Positions 1 through 17,612 of a stretch of 64,000 nucleotides of DNA are shown piece by piece. This DNA is from Microbispora amethystogenes (GTDB lineage: Bacteria > Actinomycetota > Actinomycetes > Streptosporangiales > Streptosporangiaceae): the NCBI RefSeq assembly GCF_016863015.1, contig NZ_BOOB01000027.1, positions 124,001-188,000 of the forward strand, in the 5' to 3' direction. The translations under genes were made by a program, and so were the position numbers. Under the pieces are notes generated by a model, which saw only the letters and a program-made list of their open reading frames with translations, searched no databases and had not been told where the DNA came from. Numbering within the stretch: the first letter of the stretch is position 1; every line of letters starts with the position of its first letter.

Positions 1-20
1 AGGCTGTACGAGAAGAACGT

Positions 21-61
21 CGGATGCCCGCTTCACGGGGGTAGGCGGGCATCCGATCTTT
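21..61 (+). terminator. Intrinsic terminator of upstream gene
   Basis: A perfect 11-bp inverted repeat (21-31 with 45-55, loop of 13 nt) is followed by ATCTTT. It lies before the ung gene and probably ends a transcript entering from the left edge of the window. Confidence 0.7.
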
Positions 62-109
62 CCGCCGCCGGGCCGTACGGGGCCGGAAAAGCCGATAGAG
101 TCCGCGGAC

Positions 110-787
110 ATGTCAGGACGTCCGTTGCAGGAACTCGTGGAAACCGGATGGGCCGAGGCTCTCGCACCCGTGGCCGGGCGCATCGCCGCCATGGGCGACT
201 TCCTCAGGCAGGAGATCGCGGAGGGCAGGCAGTATCTCCCGGCGGGGGACAACGTCCTCCGCGCCTTCCGGCAGCCGCTGAGCGAGGTCCGGGTGCTGAT
301 CGTCGGCCAGGACCCCTACCCCACCCCCGGCCACCCCGTCGGCCTGAGCTTCTCCGTGGCCCCGGACGTGCGGCCGCTGCCGGGCAGCCTGGTCAACATC
401 TACAAGGAGTACACGGCCGACCTCGGCCATCCCCTGCCGTCGAACGGCGACCTCACCCCGTGGACCGAGCAGGGCGTGCTCCTGCTCAACAGGGTGCTGA
501 CCGTGATGCCGGGCAAGCCCGCCAGCCACCGGGGCAAGGGCTGGGAAGAGGTGACCGAGCGGGCCATCACCGCCCTGGTCGAGCGCGGCGGCCCACTCGT
601 CGCGATCCTGTGGGGCCGGGACGCCCGCAACCTGCGCCCCATGCTCGGGCAGGTGCCGTGCGTCGAGTCGGCCCACCCGAGCCCGCTGTCGGCCCGCAGC
701 GGCTTCTTCGGCTCCCGCCCGTTCAGCCGGGCCAACGCCCTTCTGGAGCAGCAGGGCGGAACTCCGGTGGACTGGAAGCTGCCGTGA
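110..787 (+). CDS. ung: Uracil-DNA glycosylase (family 1)
   Basis: Removes uracil from DNA arising from cytosine deamination or dUTP misincorporation, opening base-excision repair in the cytoplasm. The 225-residue protein carries the water-activating motif GQDPYP at residues 66-71, with the catalytic Asp at 68, the uracil-pocket segment GLSFS at about 78-82, and the HPSPLSA DNA-intercalation loop near residue 191. Length is normal for bacterial Ung. It stands alone with a terminator upstream; the next gene starts 25 nt downstream and may be co-transcribed. The family assignment is very secure. Confidence 0.97.
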
Positions 788-811
788 CGGCCCACCGATA
801 GGATCACCACC

Positions 812-1162
812 ATGAGCGATGGAACGGACACCGGTCGCTATCTGCGGCTCACCGTCGACCTGGTGGTCGAGGTCCTCGACGTGGACGCGCTGCAGGCGGC
901 GGCGCTCGCCGAGATCCGCGACCCCCAGGCCGAACTGGACGACGCCGAGCGGCAGGAGCAGATCGAACTGGTCAACTCCGACGAGACGGGCGCGGCGGCC
1001 CTGCAGTGGCTGATCGAGCCCGACCACGTGCTCGGCCTGGTCGAGCACGTCACCGAGGTCGAACCGCGGGAGGCGATGCTCGGGGTCGAGCCGTCGGACG
1101 GCATGCTGGAAGACGAGGACGACCACGACCACGATCACGACCACGACGAGCACGGCCACTGA
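812..1162 (+). CDS. Small acidic protein with His/Asp-rich tail
   Basis: A 116-residue protein I do not recognise. Residues 1-95 are acidic and look helical/beta mixed (LRLTVDLVVEVLDVDALQAA near the start). The last ~17 residues alternate Asp and His (DHDHDHDHDEHGH), a composition typical of Ni/Zn/Co-binding tails, so metal binding is a reasonable inference. An AGGA stretch sits about 10 nt before the ATG. It follows ung by 25 nt and may share its transcript. No signal peptide or membrane segment is visible. Confidence 0.75.
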   Translation: MSDGTDTGRYLRLTVDLVVEVLDVDALQAAALAEIRDPQAELDDAERQEQIELVNSDETGAAALQWLIEPDHVLGLVEHVTEVEPREAMLGVEPSDGMLEDEDDHDHDHDHDEHGH

Positions 1163-1319
1163 CCGGCGGAACGAGCTTGCCCGGCGGACCGCGCAGGTCG
1201 TAAAGTCGGGCCACTCTGAACCGGGCACTCCCCCAGAAGTACGCCGCAGAACGGGGAGCGTATCGCGAAGGCCCTGAGGGGGCGGCACGTTCTGTCCGCA
1301 TGCCCTCTCGGAGGCAACT

Positions 1320-2168
1320 GTGTTGAACGTGGGTCTCGGCCTGCCCGTCACCGATCCCGAATCCCTGCTCGACTGGGCCCGGCGCGCCGACGCCGGTCCC
1401 TTCACCACCCTCGGCCTGCTGGACCGTCTGGTCTACGGCAATCCCGAACCGCTGGTCGCCCTCGCCGTGCTCGCCGGCGCCACCTCACGCGTCCGGGTGC
1501 AGACCGAGGTGCTCCTCGCGCCGCTGCGCGAGACCGCCCTGCTCGCCAAGCAGGCCGCGACCCTCGACCGCCTCTCCGGCGGACGTCTGGTCCTCGGGCT
1601 GGGCGTCGGCGGCCGCGAGGACGACCACCACGCCGCGGGCACCGACATCCGCACGCGGGGCCGCCGTCTCGACGCGCAGATGGCGGTCCTGCGCCGTGTC
1701 TGGGCCGGCGAGCCGTACGGGGAGGGGGCCGGTCCCATCGGCCCGGCGCCCGCCCGTCCGGGCGGCCCGGAGGTCCTCTTCGGCGGATTCAAGCCCGCCG
1801 CGCTCCGGCGGGTCGCCCGATGGGGTGACGGCTTCCTCTGCGCCGCCGCGCCCTCCTGGGCCGGTCCGCTGTTCGACACCGTCCGTACGGCGTGGCGGGA
1901 GCACGGGCGGGACGGCGCCCCGCGCATGGTCGCCCAGGTCAACGCCGCGCTCGGGCCCGAGGACGTGATCGAGGAGGCGCGCCGGGCCATGGCCGCCTAC
2001 TACCGGTTCACGGAGGCCGCGGACCACATGGTCGCCGGGATGCGCACCACCCCGGCCGAGATCCGCGAGGCGATCGCGCGGTTCGAGGACCTCGGCGCCG
2101 ACGAGGTCATGCTGTACTGCCACGGGCGCGACCCGGACCAGGTCGGCCGCTTCGCCGACATCCTCTGA
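1320..2168 (+). CDS. LLM-class flavin-dependent oxidoreductase
   Basis: Luciferase-like monooxygenase family, F420- or FMN-dependent; the substrate cannot be told. The 282-residue protein has the typical N-terminal barrel strand (VGLGLPV), the ATSRVRVQTEVLLAPLR strand-loop, and the diagnostic LAKQAATLDRLSGGRLVLGLG segment around residues 75-95. It is slightly shorter than the usual 300-350 residues. The GTG start at 1320 is chosen because GGAGG lies at 1311-1315. In Streptosporangiales most such proteins use coenzyme F420, but nothing in the sequence proves that here. Confidence 0.9.
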   Translation: MLNVGLGLPVTDPESLLDWARRADAGPFTTLGLLDRLVYGNPEPLVALAVLAGATSRVRVQTEVLLAPLRETALLAKQAATLDRLSGGRLVLGLGVGGREDDHHAAGTDIRTRGRRLDAQMAVLRRVWAGEPYGEGAGPIGPAPARPGGPEVLFGGFKPAALRRVARWGDGFLCAAAPSWAGPLFDTVRTAWREHGRDGAPRMVAQVNAALGPEDVIEEARRAMAAYYRFTEAADHMVAGMRTTPAEIREAIARFEDLGADEVMLYCHGRDPDQVGRFADIL

Positions 2169-2257
2169 ACAGCCCTCCGCCGCTTTGTGGTGAGGCCCGG
2201 CGGCCGGGCGTGAGCCCGCAGGGTGCCGGGCCGGCCGGACGCGATCCTTGAAGGGCG

Positions 2258-2800
2258 TCAGACCGGCTGCAGGGGGTGGTGGGGCCCGGCGGGCAACTCG
2301 ACGCGGATCGGGTCGCCCGGCCGGACCTCGCCGCCCGTCACGACCACGCCCATGATCCCCGCCTTGCGCACCAGGTTGCCGTCCTCGTCCCGGCCCAGCA
2401 CGGCCTTCATCAGCCCGTCCTGGAGGCCGTTGAGCTGACCGCAGGGGTTGCGCAGGCCGGTCACCTCCACGACGGCCGACTCGCCGAGGTGCAGCCGCGT
2501 CCCGGTGGGCAGCCCGAGCAGGTCGACGCCCCTGGTCGTGACGTTCTCCCCCATGTCCCCCGCCCGTACGGCGAAGCCCGCGTCACGCAACTCGTCGTGC
2601 AGTTCGGCGGGGACCAGATGCACCTGGCGGAGGTTGGGCCGGCTCGGATCGCGGGCGACCCGCGACCGATGTTTGACCGTCGCCCCAGAGTGGGCGTCCC
2701 CCTCCACTCCCAGGCCGGGCAGCAGCCTGACCAACTCCAGGGGCGCCTTGCTGAAGGTGTGGGTCGCGCTCCGGCTCACCGCCGTGACACTGCCGGCCAT
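2258..2800 (-). CDS. MOSC domain-containing protein
   Basis: A 180-residue MOSC (molybdenum cofactor sulfurase C-terminal) domain protein. These proteins bind activated sulfur or are involved in Moco-dependent N-oxygenated substrate reduction. Seen: the family motif GDAHSGATVKHRSR near residue 34, RQVHLV, GDMGENVTTRGVDL, and the conserved Cys in TGLRNPCGQL, the proposed sulfur-carrying residue. The ATG at 2800 follows GGAGGAGGAACGG, a strong ribosome-binding site. It converges with the LLM gene upstream of it on the plus strand. Confidence 0.9.
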   Translation of the reverse strand: MAGSVTAVSRSATHTFSKAPLELVRLLPGLGVEGDAHSGATVKHRSRVARDPSRPNLRQVHLVPAELHDELRDAGFAVRAGDMGENVTTRGVDLLGLPTGTRLHLGESAVVEVTGLRNPCGQLNGLQDGLMKAVLGRDEDGNLVRKAGIMGVVVTGGEVRPGDPIRVELPAGPHHPLQPV

Positions 2801-2949
2801 CTCCGTTCCTCCTCCGCTCACCCGAGCATGCTCGCATCCGGGTGCGAGCCCGGAAAGGCCGCCGCTCCTCCCCCGTGCCCGTTCGCCGGTAGGCACCGGT
2901 CGTCCCGGGCGGGAGGTCGGGAGCCGGCGGGCCGGGGGGGGGCAGGAGC

Positions 2950-3891
2950 TCAGGAGCTGAGGAGCTCCTCGCGGCGGCGGGCGAGGGACTCCTGCTCCCG
3001 GGCCAGGTGACCGCAGCGGGCGGACAGTTCGCCGACCATTCCCCCCACCCATTCGGCGACCTCGCGCACCGCCTCCCCCGTACGGGCGATCCGCTGGTGC
3101 TTGATGGCGTCGGTGATGATGTTGTCGAAGAAGACGTCGGCGAACCAGCGGGTGTCGACCTTCGGCAGCTGGGGCGCGGCGGTCACGCCGACGTCGGCGA
3201 GCTCCCGCGAGAACCGGTCGAGCGCGCCCTGCGCGTGCCAGGCCGCCTCGTCGGCCTGCCGCAGGTGCCCGTGCTCGACCATGTCGGCGAAGCCGCCGCC
3301 GCTGAACATGTCCCAGGTCGAGGCACCCCGCGCGCTCCCGAGGTGCCGCAGGACGTAGCCGACCGCCTGGCCCGCGGCGGCCCCCGCCTGCCGCGCCTCG
3401 TCGTGCTCGCGCAGGTCGGCGGTCACGTCCGCGAGCCGGGCGGCGATGTCGGAGAGCTCCCGCCCGCGCGGATCGCCCGACTCGACCAGCATCCGTTCCT
3501 TCCGCGCGAGCAGAACCTCCAGCTCGTAGTGGGGGTTGCCGAGCTCCGCGAGCGACTGGTCGGCGGTGCGCAGGTCGCCACTCAGCCACTCCAGGCGGGA
3601 CCGCTGTCCGCCGACCCGCTGGCGGGCCGCCACCGCCTCGGCCCGTTCCCGGGCGAGGCGCTCCTCCTTGTTCCCGGTCAGACCGGCCAGGAAGGCGGCG
3701 AAGCCGCCCTGCTCCAGTTTGGCGACGTCCCGGTCCTCCTTGGCGAGCTGCCGTTCCAGGTCCACCAGCACACCACGGACCTCCTCGATCTGGTTGAGAA
3801 GGGTCGCACGCTGCCGCATGAGCTGGTCCCGGCGGCGGGCGCGATCCCTCGCGTCACGGATCTCGTCATCGATCGCACCAAAAGCAGTCAC
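2950..3891 (-). CDS. Coiled-coil hypothetical protein
   Basis: A 313-residue soluble protein of no recognised family. Residues 1-160 are dominated by charged heptad-like sequence (RDRARRRDQLMRQRATLLNQ, EEVRGVLVDLERQLAKEDRD), consistent with two long coiled coils. The C-terminal half contains a more globular, partly hydrophobic segment (TWDMFSGGGFADMVEHGHLR; WFADVFFDNIITDAIKHQRI) and ends in a further helix. No signal peptide or membrane segment. It lies between the MOSC gene and the oxidoreductase gene on the same strand, separated by 149 and 65 nt. Confidence 0.8.
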   Translation of the reverse strand: MTAFGAIDDEIRDARDRARRRDQLMRQRATLLNQIEEVRGVLVDLERQLAKEDRDVAKLEQGGFAAFLAGLTGNKEERLARERAEAVAARQRVGGQRSRLEWLSGDLRTADQSLAELGNPHYELEVLLARKERMLVESGDPRGRELSDIAARLADVTADLREHDEARQAGAAAGQAVGYVLRHLGSARGASTWDMFSGGGFADMVEHGHLRQADEAAWHAQGALDRFSRELADVGVTAAPQLPKVDTRWFADVFFDNIITDAIKHQRIARTGEAVREVAEWVGGMVGELSARCGHLAREQESLARRREELLSS

Positions 3892-5029: not shown

Positions 5030-5437
5030 ATGTCACGGCTGCGTCCCCGGGGCGCGGCAGACGCGTATCTGCGCGACTGCGCCTCCCGTAAAGTGCTGGA
5101 CAGCATCGCGAACAAGTGGACCTGCCTGCTCGTGGACGCCCTGCGCGACGGCCCGGTCAGATTCGGCGCGCTGCGGCGCAGGCTCGACGGGATCACCCAG
5201 AAAAGCCTCACCCAGACGCTGCGCGCGATGGAGCGCGACGGGATGGTCGTCCGGACCATGTATCCCACGATTCCTCCCCGCGTGGAGTACGAACTGAGCG
5301 ACCTCGGGCACAGCCTGGTCGTGCTGATGGAGGGCATCCGCATGTGGTCGGAGACGCACGTCGGCGAGATCGAGGCCGCGCGGGCGGCCTTCGACAGCCG
5401 GGCGGCGGAGGAACCGCAACCGGTCCGGCCCGGCTGA
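5030..5437 (+). CDS. HxlR-family (DUF24) redox-sensing regulator
   Basis: Winged-helix transcription factor of the MarR/DUF24-HxlR family (135 residues from the ATG). Seen: the family core RKVLDSIANKWTCLLVDALRDGPVRFGALRRRLDGITQKSL, of which only the pattern W-T..LV..L..GP.RF..LRR is diagnostic. A Cys lies at residue 17 just before the first helix and another at 31. In Corynebacterium QorR and Bacillus YodB/HypR an N-terminal Cys senses quinones and hypochlorite. A GTG at 5021 is an alternative start fitting a leaderless transcript. Likely represses the divergent oxidoreductase and itself. Confidence 0.9.
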   Translation: MSRLRPRGAADAYLRDCASRKVLDSIANKWTCLLVDALRDGPVRFGALRRRLDGITQKSLTQTLRAMERDGMVVRTMYPTIPPRVEYELSDLGHSLVVLMEGIRMWSETHVGEIEAARAAFDSRAAEEPQPVRPG

Positions 5438-5460
5438 CCGCGCCCACGTGACGGTGCCCC

Positions 5461-5480
5461 CGCCCCGGCCGGCCGGGGCG
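5461..5480. terminator. Palindrome between convergent genes
   Basis: A perfect 20-bp GC-only palindrome (CGCCCCGG/CCGGGGCG arms) sits in the 54-nt gap between two converging genes. It probably serves as a bidirectional terminator, though no T-run follows on either strand. Confidence 0.45.
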
Positions 5481-5491
5481 CGCTCCGCGGG

Positions 5492-6682
5492 TCAGGCCAC
5501 CAGCAGGCCGGGCGTGTGGTGAGGATGGCGGTTTCCGCCGTCCTGGCCGCTCGACCGGCCGGGCCTGAGGCAGGAACAAGCGGCGGCCTCCGGAATGAGC
5601 CGCACCCGAAGGTCCCCCAGGCCCGGCCAACCAAGTAAGGTGTCGGACTCGGCCTCGGCCGCGCGTAGCCGCTCGCCTTCCTCCTGCCCGCCCGAGACCA
5701 CGGCGTATTCGGCCCCGGCCACATACAGCCGCTCTTCGGCCTCGCCCCACGCGCCCGAGACGACCGCATCCGCCCCCGCCGCATGTAGCCGACCGCCTTC
5801 CCCCCACCCGCTCGAGACCACGGCGTATTCGGCCCCGGCCACGCGCAGGCGGTGGTCGATGCTGCGGAAGGGCGCCTGGGGGCTCGTCGAGAGCCACGTG
5901 AGGTGGCCCTCCAGCAGGGCTTCGGCGGCGGTCCGCAGCGCGGTGACCGCGCAGAGGCTGTGCACACAGGCGAGCCCGGTCAGCGTGATCTCCGGAAGCC
6001 CGAAGCGCCGCAGCCCCCGCGACCGCGCGACGAGACAGGCGCACCCGCCCGGGCCCGCGCCCACAGCGCCCTCGACACCCCCGGCACGGGGACAGACGCC
6101 GTCACCCGTGCCCACACCAGGGCCGCCGCTCCTGCCGTCACTCGTGCCGTCACCGGGGACAGTGCCAAACCCGTCGCCGAACCCGTCGCCGGGGGCGGCG
6201 CCGCGCGCGCATCCGGCCTCGGGGTCCGCGCACGACAACCTCCAGCCCAGCCAGTCGTCGCCGAGATCGAAGTCCTCGCGCTCCCCCGGGCACTCGGCGC
6301 AGTGGTAGACCACCCCGCCGACAAGCGGGTCGTACAGCGTGCCGTGGCAGGCCTCCGCGACCGCCCGCGCGGCCGCCCGGGCGACCTGTGCGGCCTCGGG
6401 TTGCTCCTCTACAGGTGCCGTGCTCGTCACCACCACATGGTGACGAGCACGTCGCACCTGTTTCAGGTCGTCGCGGCCCAGGTCCATCCGCCGCCAGGGA
6501 GACCGGGCCGAGCGGAACGCCTCCAGCGCCAGCCGGGGCGTTCCGAGCGCCTCCCTCGCGCCCCGCCGATGGGCCGGGCGCATCCGCCAGGGCACGACCG
6601 ACGAAAGGTCGGCCGGCGTACGGTCGGTGACCACGACGAAGACCGACGAGGTCTGCGCGGGCACGGGATAGGTGATACGCAT
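5492..6682 (-). CDS. Hypothetical protein with internal tandem repeats
   Basis: An unrecognised protein of 396 residues from the ATG at 6682, which follows a strong GAGGAGGAGCC. A longer form begins at 6865, overlapping the stop of the Erm gene in an ATGA arrangement but lacking a ribosome-binding site. N-terminal ~140 residues look globular (MRITYPVPAQTSSVFVVVTD), with a Cys pair (YHCAECPG). A Gly/Asp-rich linker follows. The C-terminal part holds about four ~20-residue repeats of the type RL.VAGAEYAVVSGG..EGE. No signal peptide. Possible translational coupling to the methylase gene is the only functional clue. Confidence 0.65.
   Translation of the reverse strand: MRITYPVPAQTSSVFVVVTDRTPADLSSVVPWRMRPAHRRGAREALGTPRLALEAFRSARSPWRRMDLGRDDLKQVRRARHHVVVTSTAPVEEQPEAAQVARAAARAVAEACHGTLYDPLVGGVVYHCAECPGEREDFDLGDDWLGWRLSCADPEAGCARGAAPGDGFGDGFGTVPGDGTSDGRSGGPGVGTGDGVCPRAGGVEGAVGAGPGGCACLVARSRGLRRFGLPEITLTGLACVHSLCAVTALRTAAEALLEGHLTWLSTSPQAPFRSIDHRLRVAGAEYAVVSSGWGEGGRLHAAGADAVVSGAWGEAEERLYVAGAEYAVVSGGQEEGERLRAAEAESDTLLGWPGLGDLRVRLIPEAAACSCLRPGRSSGQDGGNRHPHHTPGLLVA
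5665..5852 (-). repeat. In-frame ~60-bp tandem repeats
   Basis: Three to four degenerate copies of a ~57-60-bp unit encode AGAEYAVVSGG-type segments. All copies stay in frame, giving a repeated protein module rather than a disrupted gene. Confidence 0.7.
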
Positions 6683-6861
6683 GGCTCCTCCTCGAAGGGT
6701 GCTGCGTACGCGGACCGCCGGAACGGCCGCGCGATCCGCCGCGGGAAGTGCCGGAGGAACGGCCGCACACCGCGCCAGTCGCTCCTCCATCGCCGCGTGC
6801 ACAGCCTGCGCCATTTCCTTCGCCCGCGTCCCACCCGAACGCCGCTCTGTGGATAACCGGC

Positions 6862-7653
6862 TCATCGAGACGGCCAGGGCCGGGCTCGTCCACAGGCCGG
6901 CATCGTGTCACGCCACAGGGAGGCCCACTGCTCGGCGCTGAGGTCCTTCGGCAGCGCGTATGGCTTCACGCGCGCCGCGCGTGCCCAGTCCCGTACGGTC
7001 CGGCGGTCCGCCCGCCCCGCGCGTTCGACGATCTCCAGGAGACCGCGCCCGCGCCCGGTGAAGACCCGCCGCACGAAGTCCTGGTACGGCCCCTTTTCGT
7101 CGACCAGTGGCACCGGCCTCCGCCTCATCCTGAGCAGGCCGCCGTCGACGGAGGGAGCCGGCCGGAACGCCCGCGCGGGCACCCTCGAACGCACCTCGAA
7201 CTCGTACCAGGGCCACCAGACGGCCGTGAGCATGCTGGCTCCGCCGACTCCGGCCCGCCGCCTGGCGACCTCCCACTGGACCAGCAGGACCGCCGCCTGC
7301 CAGCCGTTCGCGGCGAGAAGCCGTCGCATGATCGACGTCGTCAGATGGAACGGCACGTTCCCGACGACCACATGAGGATGGCGGGGGAACCGGAACCGGA
7401 GGATGTCGGCGTTGACGACCTCGACGTTCGGCGGGACGTGGCGGGCCAGGCGGCCCGCCCGCCGGGGATCGATCTCCACCGCCGTCACCGGCCTGCCGTA
7501 CCGGCTCAGGGGCAGCGTGAGCGCCCCGTCTCCCGCGCCGAGCTCGACGATCGGCCCGGGCGTCTCCGCGACGAGATCGCCGATATGGGCGATGACCGCA
7601 TCGTCGACGAGGAAGTTCTGCCCGAGTTCCTGTCGTCCGCCCTGATGAACCAT
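6862..7653 (-). CDS. Erm-family 23S rRNA (adenine-N6) methyltransferase
   Basis: Methylates A2058 of 23S rRNA, giving macrolide/lincosamide (and possibly streptogramin B) resistance. Seen in the 263 residues: the entry motif ELGQNFLVD, SAM motif I VELGAGDGALT, acidic loop AVEID, the catalytic segment GNVPFHLTT (motif IV, NVPF rather than the NIPY of dimethylating Erm proteins), and QWEVARRRAGVGG. The latter segments resemble the actinomycete monomethylating group (ErmO/TlrD-like), from memory. Start at ATG 7653 has GGAG 9-12 nt upstream; an in-frame start at 7707 is possible. A leader peptide and hairpin upstream suggest drug-inducible attenuation. Confidence 0.92.
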   Translation of the reverse strand: MVHQGGRQELGQNFLVDDAVIAHIGDLVAETPGPIVELGAGDGALTLPLSRYGRPVTAVEIDPRRAGRLARHVPPNVEVVNADILRFRFPRHPHVVVGNVPFHLTTSIMRRLLAANGWQAAVLLVQWEVARRRAGVGGASMLTAVWWPWYEFEVRSRVPARAFRPAPSVDGGLLRMRRRPVPLVDEKGPYQDFVRRVFTGRGRGLLEIVERAGRADRRTVRDWARAARVKPYALPKDLSAEQWASLWRDTMPACGRARPWPSR

Positions 7654-7760
7654 GAAAGTCGCTCCGCGAATCACGCGATCGGAGCCGGGCAGCACGAAGC
7701 GCCGCACCGGCGTGGGACACCGATGGCGGCGGAGCCGAGCAGAGGAAGGTGCCGGGCCGG

Positions 7761-7781
7761 TCCGCCGCTAGGAGCGGCGGA
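7761..7781 (-). promoter_or_regulatory. Hairpin overlapping end of erm leader
   Basis: A perfect 9-bp stem (7761-7769 with 7773-7781) and 3-nt loop contains the last codons and the stop codon of the leader peptide. A ribosome paused on the leader would melt or prevent this hairpin, the geometry expected of an attenuator. Confidence 0.6.
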
Positions 7782-7809
7782 TCCGCATGAAGCACGAGAA
7801 GGCGAGCAT
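7768..7809 (-). CDS. Putative Erm leader peptide
   Basis: A 13-codon reading frame encoding MLAFSCFMRIRRS and ending in TAG lies 115 nt upstream of the Erm start on the same strand. AGGGTGA precedes the ATG, and TAGGGT could also be a -10 box giving a leaderless leader. Known: macrolides stall ribosomes at +X(+) motifs such as RLR in leader peptides of actinobacterial and other erm genes; the R-I-R-R near the C-terminus fits that pattern. The assignment rests on position, size, motif and the overlapping hairpin. Confidence 0.6.
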   Translation of the reverse strand: MLAFSCFMRIRRS

Positions 7810-7930
7810 GAGCGTCACCCTAGCGAGGCCGCGCGAAGAGTCGCACGACGTTTTCCACCCGCGCGTCCCTACGGCACACGCGTCCCGGCCGTCAGGCGTT
7901 CAGGGGCTGTCGTTACCCTTAATGTCACAA

Positions 7931-7961
7931 ACTTGGACGATTCGATGACTTGAACTGTTCA
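7931..7961 (+). promoter_or_regulatory. Candidate FurA operator upstream of furA
   Basis: An imperfect 13-nt direct repeat (ACTTGGACGATTC at 7931-7943 and ACTTGAACTGTTC at 7948-7960) sits 17 bp out of phase, and the second copy overlaps the palindrome TGAACTGTTCA (7951-7961). It is 24 nt upstream of furA in an AT-rich pocket. FurA autorepresses furA-katG in mycobacteria and Streptomyces from such sites. Confidence 0.55.
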
Positions 7962-7985
7962 TGTTTAGGGCGATAGGTTGGCGTC

Positions 7986-8423
7986 ATGACCGCACCCAGG
8001 ACTCCGACCACCGCCGAGGAGCTGCGCGGTGCCGGCCTGCGGGTGACGGCCGCCCGTGTCGCACTGCTGGAGACCGTCCGGCACGGCGACCACCTCGACG
8101 TCGAGACGATCGCGTCGGGGGTACGTGATCGCGTGGGCCACATCTCTCTCCAGGCCGTGTACGAGGCCCTCCACGCGCTCACCGCGGCGGGCCTCATCCG
8201 CCGCATCGAGCCGGCCGGGAGCCCAGCCCGGTTCGAGGGCCGCGTCGGGGACAACCATCACCACATCGTGTGCCGGTCCTGCGGTGTGGTCGCGGACGTC
8301 GACTGCGCGGTCGGCGAGGCCCCCTGCCTGACCTCTTCCGACGACCACGGCTTCGCCATCGACGAGGCCGAGGTCATCTACTGGGGCCTGTGCCCCGGCT
8401 GTTCCAGCGCCCGCAGCTCCTGA
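7986..8423 (+). CDS. furA: Fur-family peroxide/iron-responsive repressor
   Basis: Fur-family winged-helix regulator (145 residues). Seen: DNA-recognition helix ISLQAVYEALHALTAAGLIRR, the metal-binding HHHIVCRSCGVVADVDC with the CxxC pair near residue 98, and a second CxxC-like pair (GLCPGC) at the C-terminus. It precedes katG by 32 nt. Known: in actinobacteria this arrangement is FurA-KatG, where metal-loaded FurA represses both genes and peroxide relieves repression. The short, poorly ribosome-binding leader upstream fits the leaderless furA messages of mycobacteria. Confidence 0.95.
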   Translation: MTAPRTPTTAEELRGAGLRVTAARVALLETVRHGDHLDVETIASGVRDRVGHISLQAVYEALHALTAAGLIRRIEPAGSPARFEGRVGDNHHHIVCRSCGVVADVDCAVGEAPCLTSSDDHGFAIDEAEVIYWGLCPGCSSARSS

Positions 8424-8440
8424 GCCCCATGATCCGCTGA

Positions 8441-10690
<2,250 letters not shown>

Positions 10691-14588: not shown

Positions 14589-15641
14589 ATGAACGTCGAG
14601 CCATCCGGCACCTCCCCGCAATCCAATCTCAGAGCCGCGTCGGCCCTACGGCGCACCCAGGCGTTGTTCGACGCGATGTCGGGCGACCATCTGTTCCGCG
14701 AACAGTTCGTGACCGATCCGGCGCAGATCTATTCGGAGTATGTCCACAGCGCGCCCCTCGACCGGCATCGGGCGGATGTCATCAACCAGTTCGTCTACGC
14801 CGTACTGGCCAGCGACGAGCTGATGCAGTGGATCATCCGTTACCGCGGCGAGCGGAACGGAACCGCGCCGTCGGACGGCGAGCTCGCGACACAGTTCGCC
14901 CGCGCGGTGGTCGACACGAACGCCCACCACGTGGCGCTCGCCCTGATGCGAGCGGCGACCGAACAGCAGCCGATCTTCCCCCTGGACAGGTCGATCAAGG
15001 ACCTGATCTTCGGTGGCATCGGGATCGGCCAGGGCGGGACCGGAATCCAGCTCACCGGAACCGAGATGAGCACCGGCACCGGGACCGGCACGGAGATGAG
15101 CACGGGGACCGGCACCGGAACCGAGATGAGCACCGGGACAGGCACCGGAACCGAGATGAGCACCGGGACAGGCACCGGAACGGAGATGAGCACCGGCACC
15201 GGCACCGAAGGAGTGACGGGAACCGGCACAGGGACAGGGACAGGGACAGGGACCGGCACGGGCACAGAAACGGGAACGGGAACCGGCACCGAGACAAGCC
15301 CTCCGGTCACGATTCCCGGCACCGATGTGACTTTCACCTTCGGAAGCACCGAAACGCACACTTTCCCTCCAATTACCCATACCACCGAAATCACGTCAAT
15401 CACCCAAATCACCACGCTGACGCCGCCGGGTACGTCCCCCGGGACATTCGGCGGAACGTCCCCGGGAACGTTCGGGACATTCGGCGGGACATTCGGGGGC
15501 ACCTTCGGCGGGACGTTCGGGCACATCAACCTCAACGCCCTCGACTCGGGCGCGGCAGAGATCACCCTGGATTCCCTGCGGGCTTTCGCCGTTCAACTCC
15601 GCGATGCCGGTGTGCTCGACGAGATCGGGGGCGGCGGATGA
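14589..15641 (+). CDS. Thr-Gly repeat protein with N-terminal helical domain
   Basis: A 350-residue protein of unusual design. Residues 15-135 form a helical domain ([20 protein letters not shown]..., with the F..DP..IY.EY pattern seen in some leader-like or LigA-like domains). Residues 157-236 are almost pure Thr/Gly with four exact [10 protein letters not shown] decamers followed by a long (GT)n run. Residues 240-280 are Thr/Ile-rich, 281-310 consist of [11 protein letters not shown] repeats, and a short helical tail follows. No signal peptide. The stop overlaps the next start (ATGA). Inferred to be the substrate of the two modifying enzymes encoded downstream. Confidence 0.8.
15057..15296 (+). 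repeat. 30-bp tandem repeats encoding [10 protein letters not shown]
   Basis: At least four near-identical 30-bp units are followed by a degenerate hexanucleotide GGAACC/GGGACA-type run encoding Gly-Thr. All lengths are multiples of three, so copy-number changes would alter protein length without shifting frame. Confidence 0.85.
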
Positions 15642-16906
15642 CCACCACCGACAGCCCCGCCGGCATCCCGGCCCTGCGCCGGACGACCACGGCGCTGCTG
15701 GAAGCCGGCCGCCGGAGCGAGGCCTTCGCGCTGTGGTCCGGCGCGGACTTCTCCGACGACGATCTCGGCTGGCTGTCCGAACGGGCCGGCGAGCTGATGC
15801 GGTCCACGGACCTCACGCTCGCGGGCGAGTTCGCGCACCTGCTGGCGTCCATCCGCCGGGGCAGCCGATGGTTCCCCGCCAAGAGAGCGGACGGCGCCGC
15901 CCGCCCGATCGAGCGCTTCATCACGATCCACAAGCTGCGGCACGACATCGAGCAGTTCACCTACCTGCTGGAGTCGGGGGATCTGGGTGACGAGTTCAGG
16001 GCGGTCGTGCGGGCCTACACAGAGACGGCCGACCGCCTGCTGGCGGCCGGCGTCGATCCCGACCAGCACGTGCCGTTCGACGAGCAGGCGGAAGCGGCGA
16101 TAGGGGACGTCTTCAACCGCATCGTCACCCTCCAGCCGGCGCCGCGCCTGCCACGGGCGCTGTCGGACTCGTGGAACGGGCAGGAGGTCACCGAACGCTA
16201 CCTCGCCAGCCGCGCCGGGCTGGTCGTCGTGGACAACTTCCTGTCTCCGGCCGCGCTGGACGCCGTCCGGCGGTTCTGCGCCGGGTCGACGGTCTGGTTC
16301 GGCAACCGCTACGCGAACGGCCGGCTCGGCGCGTTCTTCCACGACGGCTTCAACTGCCCGCTGCTCCTGCAGGTCGCCGAGGAACTCCGCGGCACGTTGC
16401 CCGACGTGCTCGGCCCCTATCCGCTCCGCCAGCTGTGGGGATTCAAGAACAAGGACTACCTGCCCGGCGACACCACGACGCACGCCGACTTCGCCGCCGT
16501 CAACGTGAACTTCTGGATCACGCCGACGGAGGCCAACCTGGACGAGAGCAGCGGCGGGCTGATCGTGTACGGGGTCGACGCGCCGCCCGACTGGAACTTC
16601 CACATGTACAACGGCCGCCAGGATCTGATCAAGCCCTTCCTGGCGCGGCGGAAGGCGGAGTCGGTGACCATCCCCTACCGCGCGAACCGGGCGATCATCT
16701 TCAACTCCGACCTGTTCCACGCGACGGCCGAGGTCCGCTTCCGGCCCGGTTACGAGAACCGCAGGGTGAACATCACCATGCTCTACGGCGAACGGGCCGA
16801 CGACGTCCACCACCCCGGCCTGTCGCGGCAGGCGACGCCGAACCAGATCCCCTACCGTCCGGCCTGGCGTTCGAACGCGCTGACCCGGCGGCGAGCGGGA
16901 CGGTGA
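15638..16906 (+). CDS. 2-oxoglutarate/Fe(II)-dependent oxygenase-like protein
   Basis: A 422-residue protein whose C-terminal ~230 residues match the 2OG-Fe(II) double-stranded beta-helix. Seen: iron facial triad as HAD (His282, Asp284, in [17 protein letters not shown]) and His361 ([13 protein letters not shown]), followed by a candidate 2OG-binding Arg in the [16 protein letters not shown] strand. Residues 1-170 are a helical region of unknown role, perhaps for substrate docking. Start codon overlaps the stop of the repeat-protein gene, implying coupled translation. Likely hydroxylates a protein or peptide, most simply the repeat protein. Confidence 0.85.
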
Positions 16907-16941
16907 CGTCGCAAAGTGACGTCGCACCGTGACGTCACAAC
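16903..16941 (+). repeat. Three tandem 13-bp repeats at FkbM start
   Basis: Units beginning GTGACGTC occur at 16903, 16916 and 16929 with 13-bp period. The first contains the stop of the oxygenase gene and the third contains the GTG start of the methyltransferase gene. The TGACGTCA core is palindromic. Confidence 0.75.
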
Positions 16942-17612
16942 ATGGCCAGGACGCCTACGTGCTCGCCGCCCTCGGGCACCGGCGGGCGGGCTACTTCCTG
17001 GATTCGGGCGCCTCCAACGGCGTCCGGAGCAGCAACACCAGGCTGCTGGAGCAGGAATACGGCTGGACGGGAATCTGCGTCGAGCCCAACCCGCACTACT
17101 ACGCGGAGTTGACGGCCAACCGCCGCTGCTTCAGCGTGAACTGCTGTCTCTACGACCACGACGGCACGGTGGAGTTCGTGGAGGCCGGCACCATCGGCGG
17201 GATCCTCGGCGAGTACTCCCCGCAGATGCTCACGCACGTGCGCCGGGCCCTGGAGCTGCCGGACGACGCGCCGATGCCCGTGACGGTCGTGCCGTGCCGT
17301 ACGGTCGGCTCGCTGCTCCGGCAGTTCGGCGCTCCTCGCGTGATCGACTACTGGAGCCTGGACACTGAAGGATCCGAACTGGCGATCCTCCGCACCTTCC
17401 CCTTCGGCCGCTATCTGCTGCGGATGCTGACCGTCGAGCACAACTGGGGGCCCGACCGCCGTCCCGTCCACGACCTGCTCGCCCGGCACGGGTTCGTACG
17501 CGTCGCCGAGCTGGGCTGCGACGACGTCTACGCGCACCGGTCGGTGGTGTCCCGGGGCGGGGCATGGCGATCACAGGCGTTGTCGGCCCGCGGACGCGGC
17601 CGCCCGTCCTGA
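16929..17612 (+). CDS. FkbM-family methyltransferase
   Basis: SAM-dependent O-methyltransferase of the FkbM type (227 residues). Seen: the family opening SQHGQDAYVLAALG, the SAM strand YFLDSGASNGVRSSNT, the second loop WTGICVEPNPHYYAEL, and IDYWSLDTEGSELAIL, the conserved LDTEG signature. FkbM proteins methylate sugars, polyketides and some modified peptides. The GTG is 22 nt after the oxygenase stop. The C-terminal 25 residues are basic and low complexity. Expected to act together with the oxygenase on the repeat protein or on a sugar attached to it. Confidence 0.88.
   Translation: MTSQHGQDAYVLAALGHRRAGYFLDSGASNGVRSSNTRLLEQEYGWTGICVEPNPHYYAELTANRRCFSVNCCLYDHDGTVEFVEAGTIGGILGEYSPQMLTHVRRALELPDDAPMPVTVVPCRTVGSLLRQFGAPRVIDYWSLDTEGSELAILRTFPFGRYLLRMLTVEHNWGPDRRPVHDLLARHGFVRVAELGCDDVYAHRSVVSRGGAWRSQALSARGRGRPS

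Follow-up and report, generated by a model that had tools for sequence, protein, structure and literature searches.

A candidate RiPP-like cassette in Microbispora amethystogenes: a Thr-Gly repeat protein gene beside genes for a 2OG-Fe(II) oxygenase and an FkbM methyltransferase

A three-gene cassette, encoding a Thr-Gly repeat protein (A), a 2-oxoglutarate (2OG)-Fe(II) oxygenase (B), and an FkbM-family methyltransferase (C), lies in a 64,000-nucleotide stretch of Microbispora amethystogenes DNA (assembly GCF_016863015.1, contig NZ_BOOB01000027.1, positions 124,001 to 188,000; hereafter, the window). Among the described pathways for ribosomally synthesized and post-translationally modified peptides (RiPPs), pythonamide of Ca. 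Eudoremicrobium offers the closest comparison. In the available part of its report, this proteusin pathway begins with the precursor gene ereA, followed by ereI (2OG), ereM (FkbM), ereD (a radical S-adenosylmethionine (SAM) epimerase), and ereB (PMC9259500). The EreA precursor combines a nitrile hydratase-like leader peptide (NHLP) with a 46-residue core containing 16 valines and GGP(T/S) repeats, and EreM N-methylates backbone amides, with five of the six methylations appearing only in the presence of EreI (PMC9259500). As far as that part of the report extends, FkbM backbone N-methylation is known from this one RiPP pathway (PMC9259500). The proteusin leader of known structure is described, in the portion of the source at hand, as three helices and two strands (PMC10858898).

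A preliminary description of the window had stated that no system of this form was described, which overlooked pythonamide, and had assigned O-methylation to the FkbM enzyme. Since EreM methylates backbone amides, as the available text reports (PMC9259500), O-methylation by C cannot be assumed. Our literature searches, whose coverage excluded subscription papers, returned no description of this Thr-Gly repeat protein. The three genes probably form a leader-guided modification cassette, in which B hydroxylates and C methylates protein A as a RiPP-like substrate.

The repeat protein and the two enzyme genes

The features of the cassette are collected in Table 1. The open reading frame (ORF) coordinates bear out the three-gene layout and the ATGA coupling of the preliminary description, and place the start of C 22 nt downstream of the B stop, as it had stated. 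Among 13 listed loci, the 4-nt overlap of A and B occurs in six (window, L038, L041, L042, L044, L096), and the junctions of the other seven range from -71 to +32 nt, some starts being uncertain.

Table 1. Coordinates of the cassette features within the window
Feature	Coordinates	Strand	Details and evidence
Gene A, repeat protein, proposed substrate/precursor	14589..15641	+	350 aa; starts ATG 14589, ends with stop 15641
N-domain of A, residues 1-142, helical, conserved, proposed recognition (leader) domain	14589..15014	+	AlphaFold2, alignment, dN/dS
Thr-Gly repeats of A, residues about 151-237, including five GTEMS words	15039..15299	+	
GTFGG/SPGTFGG repeats of A	15440..15526	+	Tandem-array detection
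C-terminal helix of A, residues 322-339, proposed follower	15552..15605	+	Alignment and AlphaFold2
Gene B, helical (tetratricopeptide repeat (TPR)-like) N-terminal part and 2OG-Fe(II) oxygenase domain	15638..16906	+	422 aa; starts ATG 15638
ATGA, start of B overlapping stop of A	15638..15641	+	ORF coordinates
Gene C, FkbM-family methyltransferase	16929..17612	+	227 aa; GTG start 16929; PF05050
13-bp tandem repeat (GTGACGTC-type) across the B-C junction	16903..16940	+	Present likewise in sister species; visible in L028

Tandem DNA arrays were detected inside A at 15053-15291 and 15440-15526. Of GT dipeptides, the whole protein holds 38 and its core 36, whereas shuffling the core residues 2000 times gave 15.6 on average. 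AlphaFold2 predicted helices within residues 10-140, a helix at residues 322-339, and a probably disordered middle (predicted local distance difference test score (pLDDT) below 50 at residues 143-323); a block with pLDDT 70-85 spans residues 21-130 of a model that is moderate overall (mean pLDDT 50.8, predicted template modelling score 0.46, no residue at or above 90). The arrays, the shuffle test, and the model agree with the preliminary description, which had placed Thr-Gly and GTFGG repeats behind a helical N-domain. Judged by eye only, A has neither a signal peptide, as that description had also said, nor a wall anchor. Pfam gave no match to A at E<=1, and a fold search with the moderate model returned 11 PDB matches (best E 4.6), none at E<=0.001. 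The N-domain is conserved among A proteins in a 14-row alignment and is present in 17 of 18 aligned members, the exception being L043, whose sequence is cut. The middle is variable, and Leu330, Ala334, and Leu337 of the C-terminal helix are invariant in all 18.

The nearest locus is that of Microbispora triticiradicis, with an identity of 91% for B and 93% for A. In this comparison, the rates of non-synonymous (dN) and synonymous (dS) substitution were 0.016 and 0.208 for the N-domain of A, and 0.057 and 0.812 for its Thr-Gly repeats, within which the alignment is ambiguous. The C-terminal 29 codons of A are the least constrained stretch of the pair (dN 0.130, dS 0.161); B gave dN 0.051 and dS 0.207, and C gave dN 0.064 and dS 0.214. 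Because the repeat number differs between the Microbispora sister species (17 gap columns) and dN is low, the length of the repeat region appears to drift with the repeat words retained. On these alignments, the repeats of A are maintained as a protein feature. A count of repeat units within the window (30 synonymous, 0 non-synonymous) was set aside as evidence, because it selects identical peptides. An origin of the repeats by slippage in GC-rich DNA, with A placed beside its neighbours by coincidence, is very improbable. The difference in copy number between the Microbispora species would suit slippage, but the low dN relative to dS, the mixed codons (A uses every Gly codon and every Thr codon, four of each), the same peptide words in another phylum, and the single clade of enzymes (see below) do not, and conservation across phyla already contradicts it.

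Pfam matched B at sub-threshold scores only (2OG-FeII_Oxy_3, 14.3 bits against a gathering cut-off of 27). The B model (pLDDT 85.6) matched 348 PDB chains at E<=0.001, led by PHD2, HalB, SnoN, and BesD, and contains the double-stranded beta-helix fold of 2OG-Fe(II) oxygenases. Residues His282, Asp284, His361, and Arg376 are invariant in 21 rows (the window and 20 of the 29 oxygenase loci described below); by motif, the first three presumably form the HxD...H iron triad and Arg376 is the distal arginine. Since the Pfam cut-off was missed, B is counted as a member of the 2OG-Fe(II) oxygenase superfamily on its modelled fold and these residues. TPR models matched the Streptomyces ISL-43 homologue of B, not the window protein itself. 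Protein C matches PF05050 (E 3.6e-14, 53.7 bits against a gathering score of 22.7), and scored 36.1 bits against TIGR01444, slightly under the cut-off of 37.7. Both enzyme assignments in the preliminary description were thus sound. A sequence search of the PDB gave two matches for B, only at E about 0.5, and none for C, and none of the three proteins matched a PADLOC defence-system model at E<=0.001.

Distribution of A and its enzymes

A four-row alignment of B, scanned against genome contigs, yielded 29 oxygenase loci, of which 11 carry an A gene (L038-L048); FkbM follows in five of these 11. The A-domain profile matched in ten of the 29, directly before B in nine, and with a radical-SAM gene between in one (Methylocapsa, L048). 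The eleventh locus, L043 of Granulicoccus, lies on a contig that starts within the repeats, with the remainder of A before B; another Granulicoccus contig end (L095) holds the N-domain and core, the gene being split over two ends that were not joined. Direct adjacency of A and B was found in Microbispora, Streptomyces, Nonomuraea, a Geodermatophilaceae metagenome-assembled genome (MAG), Granulicoccus, and Massilia. The same loci were reached twice in five cases (L028/L038, L030/L046, L039/L085, L044/L086, and L045/L074). The other 18 oxygenase loci showed no A match in the available flanks, some contigs being short.

The B tree has 30 rows and leaves out three of the 18 A-less oxygenases (L052, L056, and L061). 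Its 15 A-linked proteins (those of the 11 loci above and four more) form one clade with support of 100/100. The preliminary description had proposed this search for A beside the enzymes and had named enzymes consistently lacking a repeat-protein neighbour as contrary evidence; as the A-linked oxygenases are one clade, that pattern is confined to the 18 of 29 loci outside it. The clade covers Actinomycetota and Pseudomonadota (Microbispora, Nonomuraea, Streptomyces, Granulicoccus, the Geodermatophilaceae MAG, Massilia, and Methylocapsa). Its eight FkbM-less members form a subclade (98/93), whereas the node for the seven FkbM-bearing members is poorly supported (41/13) and does not resolve them as a group. 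The grouping of Massilia with Geodermatophilaceae (100/99) points to transfer.

These data also bear on the possibility that B and C modify another substrate (a glycan, a lipid, or a small molecule), with A serving as a scaffold or regulator that binds them. Characterised FkbM enzymes, as far as the available sources describe them, are mostly O-methyltransferases of other natural products, and B homologues outside the clade do without A (18 of 29, and also L036 and L037). However, all 15 B proteins of the clade in the tree are accompanied by A, a repeat-bearing gene is also found on a plasmid, the words of the core vary in step with the enzymes present, and no glycosyltransferase gene was seen to recur beside the cassette (by eye, in flanks without a family scan). 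We consider this explanation improbable.

Several oxygenase loci showed further features. At L036 and L037 (G092, G136), a pair of divergent homologues of the oxygenase lies on opposite strands, separated by about 6 kb, with no A match. The oxygenases of L062 and L064 are nearly identical, although their MAGs are labelled Rhodospirillaceae and Flavobacteriales, perhaps through a binning error. In Nonomuraea (L029), two small Cys-rich ORFs precede the cassette beside a kinase-like gene (by eye) and another gene (2-3189), possibly a second RiPP cluster, and a radical-SAM/SPASM gene follows it (7980-9419).

Searches with the N-domain covered 297 family, 394 class, and 343 Streptomyces genomes (sets that partly overlap) and required a match over at least 80 positions. 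They found 17 A loci in 16 genomes: nine adjoin B, eight adjoin a radical-SAM gene (one of these holding two A genes), and none stands alone. Left out of this count were the weak partial hit of G065 (L076), which covers 49 of 119 positions and has neither B nor radical SAM within 10 kb, and L003 and L004, which match in the repeats only. That the same N-domain pairs with radical-SAM genes as well fits the recognition leader proposed in the preliminary description. YydG was the best NCBIfam model for three of the four radical-SAM partners scanned, with YydG and PqqE scores far below cut-offs. The genome of the window carries both kinds, and in its radical-SAM-linked locus (L035, contig C36) the A-family gene (5681-6250) overlaps the radical-SAM gene (6237-7391); a close pair occurs in G119 (L034). 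Two radical-SAM-linked A proteins of L033 (4489-5316 and about 5340-6179) have extended N-termini with SRR and a hydrophobic stretch, resembling a twin-arginine translocation signal by eye. Three radical-SAM-linked Streptomyces proteins have strongly hydrophobic cores, and hydrophobic cores rich in Val and Ala were seen in the radical-SAM-linked A proteins of L088 (4270-4950), L089 (4234-4923), and L090 (4069-4623). The weak match in L076 (4612-4881) is an 89-aa ORF resembling the first half of the N-domain, with a Cys-containing tail (YGCTYRRCPD).

Across A proteins, the N-domain and C-terminal motif are shared, and the middle changes with the enzyme set. The word GT[EH][MVQ]S, shared by two phyla, occurs in seven of eight FkbM-bearing loci and none of eight FkbM-less loci (Fisher p 0.0014); TWxT[YWF] is found in all eight of the latter. 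An excess of GT (p<=0.002) was detected in 11 of 15 B-linked cores and in none of the six radical-SAM-linked cores tested, which have no GT tracts; GT counts also differed between 13 B-linked and nine radical-SAM-linked A proteins (one-sided p=0.011). The Methylocapsa locus L048 holds A, radical SAM, B, and FkbM together, and its A core combines a TG stretch with an HS...TDH stretch like that of two radical-SAM-linked proteins. Where the core is of the GTEMSPG type, two additional oxygenase-like genes are present as well: in Massilia, in the Geodermatophilaceae MAG (with the order changed), and on a Cupriavidus plasmid. One of the extra Massilia genes is a 2OG oxygenase by Pfam, and the other has no Pfam match and is 2OG-like by eye.

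The plasmid locus (L096; NZ_CP038639.1, a conjugative plasmid of Cupriavidus oxalaticus, 5228-10070) was reached by plasmid searches with B and C; those with A and with the Massilia N-domain gave no match. It holds a repeat protein gene, B, FkbM, the two oxygenase-like genes, one of which the record annotates as a 2OG-Fe(II) oxygenase, and an aldo/keto reductase gene, which recurs beside the cassette in Massilia. Its repeat protein has GTEMSPG repeats, helical-looking linkers between the blocks, and a similar C-terminal stretch.

Proposed modification and its alternatives

If A is the substrate, its predicted helical N-domain would, together with the C-terminal helix, present the disordered Thr-Gly/GTEMS core. 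B could then dock on A, perhaps through its TPR-like part, and, with Fe(II) and 2-oxoglutarate, hydroxylate residues throughout the repeat region. Methylation of the core by C might follow, at a side-chain oxygen or, by analogy with EreM, at a backbone amide. In relatives, other enzymes (radical SAM, or the two extra oxygenase-like proteins) would serve the same carrier.

Several observations weigh against this proposal. In L096, the enzymes are retained beside a repeat gene that lacks the N-domain, perhaps because the domain is not needed there or because this copy is damaged. The partition of cores by FkbM rests on few independent events and is confounded with clade, because the FkbM-less loci are one subclade, and L048 lacks GT[EH][MVQ]S although FkbM is present. 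The cassette is sporadic, B being found in two of 15 listed same-genus genomes (own genome included). No peptidase or transporter was recognised near the cassette, by eye and without a family scan, among the ORFs of the window between 9 and 24 kb. Four Streptomyces A proteins (L041, L042, L044, and L045), nested within the FkbM-less subclade, have no GT repeats and keep B; the repeat is thus common and not obligatory. The reading in the preliminary description, of an operon for a modified repeat protein, is partly supported.

As neither a protease nor an exporter was recognised nearby, A may stay full length in the cytoplasm once modified, though a housekeeping protease might remove the leader. 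The same observation would suit a structural or surface repeat protein, in which the GT tract itself is functional and B and C tune its properties, much as prolyl hydroxylase does for collagen, with no small product released. Conservation of both the N-domain and the C-terminal motif, the variation of repeat number between sister species, and the GT tracts of Granulicoccus and Streptomyces G859, which extend over some 100 residues or more, are consistent with such a protein. In the other direction, A shows by eye neither a signal peptide nor a wall anchor, repeat-free members keep the enzyme, and the cores of the radical-SAM-linked relatives are short, polar or hydrophobic, and free of GT tracts. 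We judge a structural role unlikely, though less so than a substrate other than A.

Should A be the substrate, the 2OG and FkbM pair would act on simple, countable repeat units, from which mass spectrometry could directly reveal the rules of site choice, processivity, and leader dependence. The A family would then combine one carrier domain with different modification modules and cores. The A-B-C loci add candidates for FkbM backbone N-methylation, several of them in named strains (Microbispora, Streptomyces, and Massilia), and related sets in distant bacteria suggest that these ribosomal peptides or proteins, heavily modified, are of a kind not yet described. More tentatively, and with some doubt, the family might form a separate undescribed class. 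In such a class, the helical carrier domain and C-terminal helix would frame exchangeable cores, each with its own enzyme module (2OG; 2OG and FkbM; 2OG, FkbM, and two more oxygenases; or radical SAM). In its 2OG and FkbM branch, hydroxylation and methylation would proceed one repeat unit after another over entire Thr-Gly or GTEMSPG cores, some 70 to 200 residues long, and the genes would move between phyla and be carried on at least one conjugative plasmid.

Comparison with known systems

The locus has the general organization of a RiPP, with an encoded precursor, a conserved leader, a variable core, and adjoining modifying enzymes; L096, without the N-domain, is the exception. As for the Gly-Gly cleavage site of proteusins, a GG ahead of the core was seen by eye in several A proteins (those of the window, L039, L047, and L048) and not in others (L040 and L075, for example). 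A proteusin assignment, through an NHLP/Nif11 leader, was rejected: the TIGR04509 signal (17.4 bits against 34, weak in three of 18 A proteins) did not hold, and hhalign against 13 actinobacterial nitrile-hydratase-like ORFs, which were found with TIGR03793 below cut-off and include no true proteusin, gave a probability of 1.2. A is not filed as a proteusin because it fails the Pfam, NCBIfam, hhalign, and fold tests, and its model is all-helical.

Prolyl hydroxylase is a 2OG oxygenase that acts on a repetitive, collagen-like protein substrate. The B model matches PHD2 and a bacterial prolyl 4-hydroxylase, among other structures, with 14-17% identity in the structural matches; unlike the collagen system, A has no Gly-X-Y repeat and B has an FkbM partner. 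The YydG resemblance of the radical-SAM partners, far below cut-off, recalls the radical-SAM epipeptide systems, whose precursors are much smaller than A proteins.

A further comparison is with the polytheonamide-type proteusins (PoyA/PoyD/PoyE/PoyI), in which, in the part of the source available, a long leader accompanies epimerisation, hydroxylation, and methylation of one core by several enzymes (PMC9505594). On the same partial source, PoyE belongs to PF05175, whereas C is an FkbM enzyme of PF05050 (PMC9505594). The structured proteusin leader, as described, mixes helices and strands, whereas the A model is all-helical. Measured against what is available on pythonamide, the A domain is likewise all-helical without detectable NHLP kinship, its core of about 180 residues, against 46 in EreA, carries GT/GTEMS words, the protein ends in a C-terminal helix, and the radical-SAM partners of A homologues are nearest to YydG/PqqE models, unlike EreD. 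B and C are likened to EreI and EreM by description, not by sequence. The likeness lies in a precursor gene followed by 2OG and FkbM genes, a repetitive core, a small gene set (five genes for pythonamide), and, in Methylocapsa L048, a radical-SAM gene with 2OG and FkbM as well. By these comparisons of sequence and domain, the cassette is RiPP-like and proteusin-like in logic, and not a proteusin.

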